Positions 8,551 through 13,702 of a DNA stretch of 33,647 nucleotides are shown here, piece by piece. The stretch is from the NCBI GenBank assembly GCA_016742055.1, contig JACVCK010000008.1, forward strand, positions 1-33,647. The letters run 5' to 3'. Each line of letters starts with the position of its first letter. The stretch's first letter is position 1. The notes under the pieces were generated by a model that was not told the DNA's origin, ran no database searches, and saw only the letters and a program-made list of their open reading frames with translations. This stretch comes from Phycisphaerales bacterium (lineage in GTDB: Bacteria; Planctomycetota; Phycisphaerae; Phycisphaerales; UBA1924). The translations under genes were made by a program, and so were the position numbers.

Positions 8551-9231
8551 ATGGACGTCCGCGTCGTCAGCATCGGGGCCCTGGGGGCGCACCCACTCTG
8601 GAGCGAGCGCGCGCCCGTCCGCGCAGGGCACGCCACGACCACGCTCATCCGCACGGCCGGGCGCACGATCCTGGTGGACCCCGGCCTGCCCGAGGCCGCG
8701 ATCGTCGCGCGCTTGCGTGAGCGGGCCAACGTCGCGCCCCGCGACGTGACCGACGTGTTCCTGACCTCGTTCCGCCCGGACGCACGCCGGTCGATCGAGG
8801 CGTTCGCCGACGCGGACTGGTGGATCGCCGAGTCCGAGCGCGAGGGCGTGGGTCTGCCCCTGATCGACGCCCTCCAGCGCGCCGCCGAAGGCGGCGATGA
8901 GGAACTCCAGAAGATGATCGCGCACGACGTGGCCGTCCTTCAGCGATGCCGCGCCGCGCCCGACGCGCTCGCCGAACGCGTCGACCTCTTCCCGCTCCCG
9001 GGCGTCACGCCCGGCCTCTGCGGCCTGCTGATCGCGGGCCAGCGCCACACCACGCTGGTCTGCGGCGACGCGATCCCCACCGTCGAGCACCTCGAGCAGG
9101 GCAAGGTGCTGCCCCAGTGCGCCGACGCCGAGGCCGCGGCGGCGTCGTTCGCGGAGGCGATCGAGATCGCGGACCTTCTGATCCTGGGGCGCGACAATCT
9201 GGTCGTGAACCCCACGCGCCGCCCGTTCTGA
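8551..9231 (+). CDS. Metallo-beta-lactamase-fold-like protein lacking the canonical HxHxDH motif
   Basis: 'GHATTTLIRTAGRTILVDPGLPEAAIVARLRERANVAPRDVTDVFLTSFRPDARRSIEAF' aligns by eye with MBL 'ILVDPG..(V)T.VF(LTHLHPDH)'. Later 'LPGVTPGLCGLLIAGQRHTTLVCGDAIPTVEHL'. Begins 3 nt after coaD. Confidence 0.65.
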   Translation: MDVRVVSIGALGAHPLWSERAPVRAGHATTTLIRTAGRTILVDPGLPEAAIVARLRERANVAPRDVTDVFLTSFRPDARRSIEAFADADWWIAESEREGVGLPLIDALQRAAEGGDEELQKMIAHDVAVLQRCRAAPDALAERVDLFPLPGVTPGLCGLLIAGQRHTTLVCGDAIPTVEHLEQGKVLPQCADAEAAAASFAEAIEIADLLILGRDNLVVNPTRRPF

Positions 9232-9293
9232 ATCGCCCTCGCATCGTGGTTTCGCCCGAACATCCCCCATGCTGGGCCAGTATCATCACGGCC

Positions 9294-11294
9294 ATGCCGC
9301 GAACGATCGCCCTGCTGACTCTCGCCTGCGTCCTCCTTGCCCCCTGCTTGCGCGCTCAGGACGAGGCGCCCCCGCCCGCCGAGGCGCCGGCCCAGCCCGA
9401 CTGGTCCGAGACGGCGCCTCCGGTTCCCGAGCAGACCGCGCCGGGCGCGCCGGCGATCGATTTCGCCTCGCTCCCGCCGCAGATCCGCCTGGGCGTGCGC
9501 GTGGCCCTGGTCCGGCAGAACATCCCCGTGCACTCCACGGTGGTGATTGTGCCCGACGCGTCGGCGTACATCGAGGCCATCGGCGAGTGGCGGACCGAGG
9601 CCCGATTCCCCGTCCTGATCGACGATGGCTCCGCTGAAGCCGCCGAGAGCATCGCGCGGTTCGTCCGCGCCTTCCGGCCCGACGCGGTCGTCCGATGGCC
9701 GGGCTCCGGGCAGGTCTGGGCGCAGTCGATCGAGGTCCTGCGCCAGCGCGTGGACGACGCCGCGGCCCGGGCGTTCGGCGCCGAGAACCGCGAGAAGATC
9801 CGCGAGCGCTGGGAGGAACTGCGCTTCGCCCCCATGGGCGTGGTCGTGGCGTCCATTAAGGACCCCGCGTGGGCTGGCGCGCTGGCGATGGCGGCGGGCT
9901 ACGGCCAGCCGATCGCGTGGGTGGACGTTGAGCCCCGCTCGCTCGCGGGCGAGGTCGCCCCCGAGGAGATCGCGGCGCTCAACGGAGCGGTGGCGTCCCT
10001 GTGCGAATCGCTCGAACTTCCGTTCGCGGGCTTCGGCGACGCGGTGGACGCGTTCACCGTGTGCCTGAACATGCCCACGAAGCACCCCGGCGCCGACGGG
10101 CCCTTGGCCGTCACCGACCTGCTCGGGCGCAACGAACAGAAGTTGCGCTGGGCGTACGTTGGCCTCATGCCCGGCGACGCGCCCACCAGCGCCTACCGCG
10201 CCATGTGCTCGCTGTTCCTCAACCCGCGCTCCGGCTGGTTCGTGGACGGCTACGAATCCAGGCGCGAGACGGCCGGCTACGACGTCAACCGCCCGGCCGC
10301 GATCCTGCGCGAACGCGGCGTGGTGTCCGTCACCGACCGCAGCCCTGGCGTGGGGCGTGCGGCGTGGCGCTCGCGCGCGGCCCTGGGCGTGGACGCGGGA
10401 TTCATCCACCTCAACTCCTCCGGCCAGCGCCGCTGGTTCCGCCTCCTCAAGGACGACGTGGACGCCAGCGACATCCCCCTCCTGCGCACGCCGAGCATCG
10501 TCCACATGATCCACTCCTTCTCCGCACAGAATCCCGACGACGGGCAGTCGATCGCGGCGCGATGGATGGACCGCGGCGCCTACGTCTACTTCGGCTCGGT
10601 GGACGAGCCCTACCTCCGCGCATTCCAGAACCCCCAGACCATGGCCCGGCGCTGGTCCTCCAAGGCGCCCTTCTCGATCGCCGTCCGCGTGGACGGGCTC
10701 GAGCCGTGGAAACTCAACTACTTCGGCGACCCCCTGCTGACCCTCACCAGCGAGCCGCAGCGCAAGCCCGGCGCGCCGGCGCTGTCGGGGCTCGAACCGC
10801 TGGACGGGCTCCTCCGCGCCGCCATCCGCGAGCGGCGGCTGGCCGACGCCGCCCGGATGCTCGTGCTCATGGGGCGCGACGAGGACGCCGCAGGGCTGTT
10901 CGCCGCGGCGCTGGCGGACAAGGACCACGAAGTTTCGCCCGAACTGGCGGAGGCGTGCTTCTACCCGCTCGTCCGCGCGGGCGACGTGCCCGGCGCGGTG
11001 AGCGCGTTCGAGCGCATGTCCGACCGGGCGCGCCGGAGCAACATCGCCGCGGACACGCTCTGGCTCGCCGCGCGGCCCCGGCTGGCGCTCGTCCCGCCCG
11101 ACCTCCGCACCGCGCAGGTCCTCAAGGCCAACGTGCGCCCGCACGCCAGCGCCGACGACGCCGAAGCGCTCGCCCCCGCGCTCCGGCGCATGGAGAGCGC
11201 CGAATCCGTCCGCGCCTGGCTCCAGACCCTCGCGAACGAAACCAAGAACCAGAAGGACCGCCAGCGCCTGACGGAACTCCTGTCGCGCTACTAG
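9294..11294 (+). CDS. Large secreted protein of unknown function, possibly gingipain/C25-like fold
   Basis: Signal peptide MPRTIALLTLACVLLAPCLRAQ from ATG 9294. Contains 'AARWMDRGAYVYFGSVDEPYLRAFQNP' and 'LNYFGDPLLTLTSEP', which resemble C25-family landmarks. The C-terminus is helical and repeat-like. Confidence 0.65.
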   Translation: MPRTIALLTLACVLLAPCLRAQDEAPPPAEAPAQPDWSETAPPVPEQTAPGAPAIDFASLPPQIRLGVRVALVRQNIPVHSTVVIVPDASAYIEAIGEWRTEARFPVLIDDGSAEAAESIARFVRAFRPDAVVRWPGSGQVWAQSIEVLRQRVDDAAARAFGAENREKIRERWEELRFAPMGVVVASIKDPAWAGALAMAAGYGQPIAWVDVEPRSLAGEVAPEEIAALNGAVASLCESLELPFAGFGDAVDAFTVCLNMPTKHPGADGPLAVTDLLGRNEQKLRWAYVGLMPGDAPTSAYRAMCSLFLNPRSGWFVDGYESRRETAGYDVNRPAAILRERGVVSVTDRSPGVGRAAWRSRAALGVDAGFIHLNSSGQRRWFRLLKDDVDASDIPLLRTPSIVHMIHSFSAQNPDDGQSIAARWMDRGAYVYFGSVDEPYLRAFQNPQTMARRWSSKAPFSIAVRVDGLEPWKLNYFGDPLLTLTSEPQRKPGAPALSGLEPLDGLLRAAIRERRLADAARMLVLMGRDEDAAGLFAAALADKDHEVSPELAEACFYPLVRAGDVPGAVSAFERMSDRARRSNIAADTLWLAARPRLALVPPDLRTAQVLKANVRPHASADDAEALAPALRRMESAESVRAWLQTLANETKNQKDRQRLTELLSRY

Positions 11295-13702
11295 GTCGTT
11301 CGGGCGTCAACGATCGCACGCTGCAGGCGCGGCAGTCGGCGCGCCGTCTCGATCAGCAGCCACGCCTCCAGCGTCAGCACGACGAGCGCGAACGCCAGCA
11401 GCGGCCACTGCTTCGTCTCCCACCACGACGCTGTTCCTTCGTTGCCGATGAACGCCTGCCAGATCATCGCCCACGCGGGCACGATCAGCATGAAGATCGC
11501 CGCGGGGACCACGATCCACGTCGGCCGGCGCGTCGCGCGGAGCCAGGCGTAGATCACGATGAACGCCAGACCGCCGAGCAACTGGTTCGTCGCTCCAAAG
11601 AGCGGCCAGAGGATCATCCCGCCCTTGCCGGCGTTCGCGAGTGTCCACGTGGCGCCGGTGGGGGGGATCGCCGCGAGGATCGCCGCCGCGACGACGGCGA
11701 ACATCGTCGCCCCGTGCACGGTCGCGAGCCACTTGAAGGGATTGAGATTCGACGCCGCATGCCACGCGCGATCGCCGGCGTCGTGGTGGTAAATCTCGTG
11801 CTGCGGCCTCTCGGCGCCGCACTCCGGGCAGCGGACCATCGCCGCCGCGGCCACCTCGACCTCCACCTGTTTGCCGTCGATCACGCCCTTCAGGTCGTAC
11901 CCGCACGCGGCGCAGGCGAACGCGCCCCGCTTGGGCAGGAACGTCCGCGCCAGTTCCTGCAGGACGTACCGGTTGAGCCGGCACGCCGTGTCCATCGTGG
12001 TGCCCGCGAACGACGCCACGAGCACGCCCATGAGCGCGACGGCCATGCCCTCGGGGATGCCGAGCGCCTCGACAAGGTTCGCCGCGCCGGTGACGAACGC
12101 GCCGACGGTGGCCGCGAGCCCGCCCGCGGCGTTCCAGGACCTGTACTGTTGGGCGAATGCGAGGTCGCCGTAGAGCCGGAGTTCACCATTCGATTGTAAA
12201 TGAACCACGCTGCCGTCGAATCTGAGCGGATCGTAGACTGCTTCGCCCGTCACGCTCGCGATCAACGGATCGGGATTTTCGCGATATGCATCCCACTGCG
12301 GCTGCGATCCCGTCTGCAATCCCAGCGCTCCGATGAATGATCCAGGCGAACTTGCGATGGCCAGTGTGTGGATCTTGGCGTGCTCCGCCACCTCCAACTC
12401 GCCTCGGGGATTGATCCGAGCTTCAGCAAGAACTCCGATCGTTCGTTGCTGCCCCCCCGCGAATGGGACAGTCACCGGAGCGCCCAACAGCACGGGGCGG
12501 CTGACTCCATTGGCATCGGTCTGGAGGGCTCCGATGGCCGGGCCTGATAATGAGGCCGTCACACCCCCCAGCCCCAACCCCGCCACACACGCCACGATCA
12601 CCAGGATCGCCAGAAAACTCTCCGTGAGCATCGACCCGTAGCCCACCGGCAGGGCATCGGTCTCCTTCTTCAGTTGCTTGCTGGTGGTGCCGCTGCTGAC
12701 GAGGCAGTGGAAGCCCGAGATGGCGCCGCAGGCGACGGTGATGAACAGGAGCGGCACGATCGGCGGCGCGCCCTGGGGCTGCCAGTTGACCATCGGGGCG
12801 ACGATCTCCAGAGGGATGCGCTCGACCTCGCCCGGGGCGACCTCCAGTTTCCCCCCGAACAGCGCCGCGGCGACTAAACCTGCCACGATCAGCCCCAGCG
12901 CCGAGACCAACTGCAGCGCGTTGATGTAGTCCCGGGGCTGGAGCAGGACCCACACCGGCAGCACGCTGGCGATGTAGCAATAGGCCAGCAGGCCGATCGT
13001 CCACGCCCAGAGCGGCTGCGCGGCGAGGAACTGGTTGAACGTGTGCAGCCCCCCGATGGTCGGGCCGAAGGACGCGTCCCCGAACATGACCGAGGCGTAC
13101 ATCAGAACCAAGGCGACAATGCTGACCAGCACGATCGACCCGCCCCGCCGGTGCACCATCACACCGATGACGATGGCGAGGGGAATCTGGAAGAGGACGG
13201 GGAAGATCGCCGCGGGAAACTGGCGCAGGACGCTGGCGATCACCAGCCCGAAGATCGCGAGGACGATCCACAGCCCCAGCGCCAGCACGCACAGGAAGAT
13301 CAGCCGCACGCGCGGCCCGAGCAGGTCACCCGCGATATCCCCGACTGTCCGCCCCTTGTTCCGCAGCGACACCACCAGCGAGCCCAGGTCGTGCACGGCG
13401 CCGATGAAGATTCCGCCGAACACCACCCACAGGACCGCCGGCAGCCAGCCCCACATCACCGCGATCGCCGGGCCCACGATCGGCCCCGTGCCCGCGATGC
13501 TCGTGAAGTGGTGCCCGAAGACGACGGACTTGGCCGTCGGGCAGTAGTCGCGCCCGTCCTCGTACACCACCGCGGGGGTGGGCGAGTCTTCTCGGAGCGT
13601 GAAGACTCGCCTCGCCACCCAGCGGCCGTATGTGAAGTAAGCCACGATGAGCAACCCGCCAGCGACGACGGCGAGCAGCAGCGCTTCCATATCGGCCATC
13701 AT
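11291..13702 (-). CDS. cstA: Carbon starvation protein CstA family peptide transporter/permease, with inserts
   Basis: 'RDYCPTAKSVVFGHHFTSIAGTGPIVGPAIAVMWGWLPAVLWVVFGGIFIGAVHDLGSLVVSLRNKGRTVGDIAGDLLG', 'CGAISGFHCLVSSGTTSKQLKKETDALPVGYGSMLTESFLAI' and 'LVASFAGTTMDTACRLNRYVLQEL'. Start chosen at MMADMEALLLAVVAGG. Confidence 0.93.
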   Translation of the reverse strand: MMADMEALLLAVVAGGLLIVAYFTYGRWVARRVFTLREDSPTPAVVYEDGRDYCPTAKSVVFGHHFTSIAGTGPIVGPAIAVMWGWLPAVLWVVFGGIFIGAVHDLGSLVVSLRNKGRTVGDIAGDLLGPRVRLIFLCVLALGLWIVLAIFGLVIASVLRQFPAAIFPVLFQIPLAIVIGVMVHRRGGSIVLVSIVALVLMYASVMFGDASFGPTIGGLHTFNQFLAAQPLWAWTIGLLAYCYIASVLPVWVLLQPRDYINALQLVSALGLIVAGLVAAALFGGKLEVAPGEVERIPLEIVAPMVNWQPQGAPPIVPLLFITVACGAISGFHCLVSSGTTSKQLKKETDALPVGYGSMLTESFLAILVIVACVAGLGLGGVTASLSGPAIGALQTDANGVSRPVLLGAPVTVPFAGGQQRTIGVLAEARINPRGELEVAEHAKIHTLAIASSPGSFIGALGLQTGSQPQWDAYRENPDPLIASVTGEAVYDPLRFDGSVVHLQSNGELRLYGDLAFAQQYRSWNAAGGLAATVGAFVTGAANLVEALGIPEGMAVALMGVLVASFAGTTMDTACRLNRYVLQELARTFLPKRGAFACAACGYDLKGVIDGKQVEVEVAAAAMVRCPECGAERPQHEIYHHDAGDRAWHAASNLNPFKWLATVHGATMFAVVAAAILAAIPPTGATWTLANAGKGGMILWPLFGATNQLLGGLAFIVIYAWLRATRRPTWIVVPAAIFMLIVPAWAMIWQAFIGNEGTASWWETKQWPLLAFALVVLTLEAWLLIETARRLPRLQRAIVDARTT

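Follow-up and report, generated by a model that had tools for sequence, protein, structure and literature searches.

Positions 1 to 33,647 of contig JACVCK010000008.1 of a Phycisphaerales bacterium (GenBank assembly GCA_016742055.1), all analysed and called the window here, carry on the reverse strand a gene for a transporter of the CstA family, and the subject of this report is a 139-residue loop in the middle of that transporter which appears to be hypervariable. The encoded protein matched the CstA profile PF02554 with 423.6 bits against a curated cut-off of 27, which places it in the CstA family (TC 2.A.114). The profile aligned in three stretches, and a gap fell exactly at the loop segment. 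The score against NF011590, the NCBIfam equivalog for Escherichia coli-type CstA, was 233 bits, far under the cut-off of 1188 bits, and the substrate is therefore left open. E. coli CstA and BtsT are pyruvate/H+ symporters (PMC7730263). The window protein has in common with them the conserved core, many transmembrane helices and a C-terminus that is cytoplasmic by the positive-inside rule, but differs from the E. coli type in having the 139-residue loop and a zinc-ribbon-like linker as extras. The gene and its parts are as follows.

11291..13702, reverse strand: cstA-family transporter gene, 803 aa, with the ATG at 13702 and the stop codon at 11291-11293 (PF02554 match and open reading frame (ORF))
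12566..13702, reverse strand: conserved N-terminal transporter core, residues 1-379 (72-76% identity to the nearest relatives; high-confidence helices)
12149..12565, reverse strand: hypervariable loop, predicted to be extracytoplasmic, residues 380-518 (139 residues; delimited by alignment; no significant similarity to almost any other loop in this position; GC content at third codon positions (GC3) 0.65)
12353..12496, reverse strand: stretch of the loop for which beta strands are modelled, residues 403-450 (AlphaFold2 (AF2), low confidence)
11939..12148, reverse strand: post-loop conserved core, residues 519-588 (QYRSWNAAGGL...LARTF; 70-80% identity to the nearest relatives)
11747..11938, reverse strand: second variable segment, residues 589-652, a linker, predicted to be cytoplasmic, that contains a CxxC...CxxC zinc-ribbon-like motif (alignments; PF13248 below its cut-off)
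11291..11746, reverse strand: conserved C-terminal helices, residues 653-803, and the stop codon (PF02554 positions 481-557; alignment)

The original prediction, made from the sequence of the window, had described positions 12140-12545 as a lower-GC, beta-rich extracytoplasmic domain recently acquired by cstA. The sequence, place and composition of the segment were as described, with alignment moving its bounds to 12149-12565; conservation returned sharply at the end of the loop. The AF2 model of the full-length protein (predicted TM-score (pTM) 0.82) consisted of long helices, and the segment lies between helix 355-378 and helix 528-545. The best Protein Data Bank (PDB) matches of this model in Foldseek were transporters of the APC superfamily (NKCC, NCC and ApcT; E 5e-5, TM-scores modest), and model and matches together identify the protein as an APC-type inner-membrane transporter with many helices. 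The cytoplasmic helix ends are recognisable by their positive charges (GRWVARR, RNKGR, HRRGG, SKQLKKE, RATRR and the C-terminus), so the positive-inside rule, taken with the helix ends, places the loop on the outer side of the inner membrane and residues 589-652, the second variable segment, on the cytoplasmic side, in agreement with the predicted extracytoplasmic position. The predicted beta content was supported weakly: strands were modelled at residues 403-450 in both the full-length and the loop-only models, but at low confidence (predicted local distance difference test (pLDDT) about 55-65 and about 65-77, respectively), and the model of the second half of the loop is unreliable. The loop-only model (pLDDT 54, pTM 0.31) was too poor for a fold search. 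The window's loop had no match in Pfam and PDB profile searches, and the whole set of loops from related proteins gave only two weak single-member Pfam hits.

The distribution of the loop was determined in 149 CstA proteins, drawn from Planctomycetota, Verrucomicrobia and a small number of other groups, with one genome per species. The proteins were recovered from genome contigs with an alignment as query; a single-protein query matched nothing. In most of them, including most Verrucomicrobia and other Planctomycetota, the site is 15-22 residues long (typically about 17 aa), and the segment as such is absent. However, 36 of the 149 proteins, the window's included, have loops of 66-160 residues, and the other 35 come mostly from the same order. 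The window falls in a supported clade, all 14 members of which have a long loop. On a core tree built with FastTree, from which loop and linker were excluded, the distribution of long and short loops requires 12 changes, six of which are forced by supported branches. Flanking cores within the window's clade share 66-76% identity with the window's own, while the loops are at chance similarity, and the loops of the nearest relatives (core 72-76% identical) are still unrelated to the window's. A long segment is thus present at the site in relatives but cannot be aligned with that of the window. By these comparisons the site is hypervariable and does not hold a single inserted domain. In addition, the CstA of locus L051 (genome G083) has a further insertion of about 100 residues in another extracytoplasmic loop, equivalent to window residues 283-312.

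The loops also differ between closely related species. Five sets of close species, with cores 88-95% identical, carry mutually dissimilar loops between near-identical flanks, and their sister relations have support of 94-100 on the core tree. No significant loop similarity was found in the pairs L005/L016 (core identity 0.93, synonymous divergence (dS) 0.36), L006/L019 (core 0.94, dS 0.41), L145/L146 (core 0.91) and L147/L148 (core 0.885). In the fifth set, L153/L154/L155 (genus g109; L101/L154; core 0.94-0.95), the loops are 100, 42 and 48 aa long and show no resemblance, as judged by low pairwise identity computed without a shuffle test. At the DNA level, similarity ends at GLGLG and restarts at AFxxxYxSW. 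One loop type is common to L005, L006 and L007. The loop of L019 matches that of L166, which belongs to another family (z 18, E 2.8e-13, 39% identity), with cores only 70% identical, yet it does not match the loop of its 94%-identical sister L006. Loop types are thus distributed against the core phylogeny in one clear case, and this sharing despite a differing sister implies that loop and core have different histories. Taken together, the comparisons show that long loops occur in many Phycisphaerales lineages, that sequence and length change fully despite a near-identical flanking transporter, and that one loop type spans families.

The lower GC content reported for the segment was confirmed by sliding windows of 200 bp (GC 0.595-0.635 at the loop versus about 0.65-0.73 around it) and by codon position. 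The loop has a GC of 0.61 overall and a GC3 of 0.65, versus 0.93 for the remainder of the gene; the drop is confined to third codon positions, positions 1 and 2 being not lower. The other predicted genes of the window have a mean GC3 of 0.926 (standard deviation (sd) 0.043, from 585 windows of 139 codons across the predicted genes), which puts the loop about 6 sd low. Only one other stretch is as low, at the 5′ end of the ORF at 8946, which is over-extended there and probably non-coding in that part. In this ORF (8946-11294, a weak TIGR03790 match) the stretch from 8946 to about 9300 has a very low, non-coding-like GC3, and the true start is probably downstream. The unusual TTA codons were likewise borne out: the window's roughly 9,445 predicted codons include three, two of them in the loop and the third elsewhere in cstA. 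At 12541-12557 the inverted repeat GGCCT/AGGCC was confirmed, with perfect 5-bp arms, but the gene contains 38 such repeats, so this one is uninformative about the loop edge and was attributed to chance. The GC3 deficit was found in 33 of 36 long-loop lineages (mean 0.61 in the loop versus 0.84, p 4e-10), whereas another extracytoplasmic loop, at residues 283-312, has a normal GC3 of 0.82 and the linker is intermediate (0.74). As the deficit recurs in this way, it is best read as a property of the site across lineages and not as the sign of one recent arrival. Both repeated import of lower-GC DNA and absent codon selection are compatible with it.

The turnover was compared with that of other proteins. 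In five genomes of one genus, the orthologues around cstA showed few windows of low identity, and those averaged a GC3 of about 0.73-0.79, whereas the CstA loop windows of these genomes had identities of 0.10-0.25 and a GC3 of about 0.5-0.65. Among 26 orthologous pairs of SSF/MFS transporters, 0 of 1,029 windows fell below 0.36 identity and the GC3 minimum was 0.72, the windows of this control spanning 80 columns against 40 for the CstA loop. Since neither the neighbouring orthologues nor the SSF/MFS transporters have similar windows, the turnover appears to be particular to the CstA loop among the proteins tested.

The second variable segment showed a pattern of its own. A CxxC...CPEC motif is found in the cytoplasmic linker of many Phycisphaerales CstA proteins, whether the outer loop is long or short, and is missing in most others. 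The zinc-ribbon-like motif was seen in L005-L016, L026-L030, L041-L053, L163, L165, L181 and L182 and in the window at 11747-11938. The zinc-ribbon profiles PF13248 and PF12773 scored 17.4 bits (cut-off 27) and 15.4 bits (cut-off 27.3), respectively, with CxxC...CxxC kept in many relatives, and presence of the motif requires nine changes on the core tree. A correlation between zinc ribbon and long loop looked suggestive in the alignment, but with about three informative independent pairs it was not significant. In genus g40 the linker contains an in-frame copy of an interspersed GC-rich repeat of about 120 bp (G047:C65:5542-5661, L016; G055:C23:115409-115522, L006). This repeat has 35 matches in G047, 20 in G055 and three diverged ones in the window's genome, and often stands in inverted pairs, resembling repetitive extragenic palindromic (REP) elements and bacterial interspersed mosaic elements (BIME). 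Its DNA in the g40 linker is better conserved between species than the cstA core.

We consider it reasonably probable that in this segment the window carries one form of a hypervariable extracytoplasmic CstA loop, which has repeatedly been replaced as a unit by recombination in its flanks. Homologous recombination in the conserved flanking helices would probably swap the loop as a whole, and the replacement loops may have been drawn from diverged or lower-GC DNA rather than arising by slow divergence in place. Several points weigh against this reading. Among 300 genomes of the order none yielded a source for the window's loop; six weak matches in other proteins of these genomes (E 7e-5 to 8e-3) were inspected and judged to be chance. 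Nothing convincing was found outside their genus as a donor of the L016 and L006 loop types, the single hit for the L006 type being weak (E 8e-4) and likewise ascribed to chance. There is only one clear case of cross-family sharing. The comparison also runs between species, each represented by one genome. In favour of replacement, identical residues in the alignable loops of L005, L006 and L007 share their codon in only 0.29-0.34 of cases, versus 0.61-0.67 in the core, and dS is saturated in these loops but about 0.55-0.7 in the core. Strong codon bias inflates core agreement and partly confounds this synonymous contrast, which is therefore taken as supporting evidence only.

The main non-functional rival is neutral drift, in which an unconstrained, perhaps disordered spacer diverges in place by substitution and indels and its low GC3 reflects a lack of codon selection. 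Much of the loop is modelled with low confidence, loop lengths vary freely, and type-A loops within one genus evolve with a nonsynonymous divergence (dN) of about 0.45-0.6, all of which would fit. Yet in sister pairs whose core dS is only 0.36-0.44 the loops are no more alike than shuffled sequences, drift cannot make the L019 loop resemble that of another family and not its sister's, the loop at 283-312 keeps its normal GC3, and the predicted intergenic GC of the window, about 0.71 (a rough value that may include missed genes), exceeds the 0.61 of the loop. We regard drift as unlikely. The main functional rival, a module that binds a lineage-specific partner (e.g. a periplasmic binding protein, a sensor or a cell-wall component) and co-evolves with it, seems distinctly unlikely. 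NKCC/NCC and other APC-fold transporters bear large extracellular loops, and the window's protein resembles such transporters in its model and has a loop predicted to be extracytoplasmic and partly beta; however, the loops have no common sequence core and no convincing Pfam or PDB match, and full replacement between sisters outpaces usual partner co-evolution.

The acquisition of a single foreign beta-rich domain by this gene, as first proposed, could account for the low GC3, the TTA codons and the lack of a relative of the loop in the 300 genomes, but since all 13 other clade members, and other lineages too, have long loops in exactly this position, and the GC3 deficit is so widespread among them, it is largely refuted as stated and has very little probability left; an older loop may nevertheless have been replaced recently in the window's lineage. 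Targeted in-place hypermutation, by a diversity-generating retroelement or similar, would raise both dN and dS in the loop only, as seen, but is highly improbable given that the loop comparisons showed large length changes and wholly unrelated sequences in place of adenine-specific substitutions in a fixed frame.

If the loop is indeed replaced as a unit by recombination in its flanks, its diversity may, tentatively, be favoured by escape from phages, contact-delivered toxins or bacteriocins. Phage DNA-injection factors and such toxins or bacteriocins would enter via the periplasmic face of inner-membrane transporters, and a novel loop would protect the cell while transport via the core goes on. 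Neisseria porins in the outer membrane have recombining hypervariable surface loops. BamA, also in the outer membrane, is the receptor of contact-dependent growth inhibition (CDI) effectors (PMC5371414). These proteins likewise combine a conserved membrane scaffold and conserved flanks with loops swapped between lineages, but in the CstA case a solute transporter of the inner membrane forms the scaffold, the loop is predicted to face the periplasm, and immune or phage pressure is hypothetical. At the inner membrane, the permease GltJK is an entry point for contact-delivered toxins, with species-specific recognition of its exposed parts (PMC9291907), and phage lambda uses inner-membrane receptors for DNA entry (PMC6832061). 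In these systems exposed parts of solute transporters set susceptibility, which by analogy would select for diversity. It is conceivable, if doubtful, that the loop of a housekeeping transporter circulates among species and families as an exchangeable cassette diversified by phage or toxin selection, an inner-membrane counterpart of the porin loops.

The CstA family and hypervariable exchanged loops on surface proteins are already known; the literature searched held no report of a hypervariable loop in CstA, and what is new is such a loop pattern in this family. To our knowledge, few if any receptors for phage injection or toxin entry are known in Planctomycetota. That a swapped-loop pattern occurs in one loop on the periplasmic side of a conserved nutrient transporter, and not in the other transporters compared, suggests that the planctomycetotal inner membrane is under a selective pressure so far unrecognised, and it singles out a protein and a loop in which such receptors may be sought.
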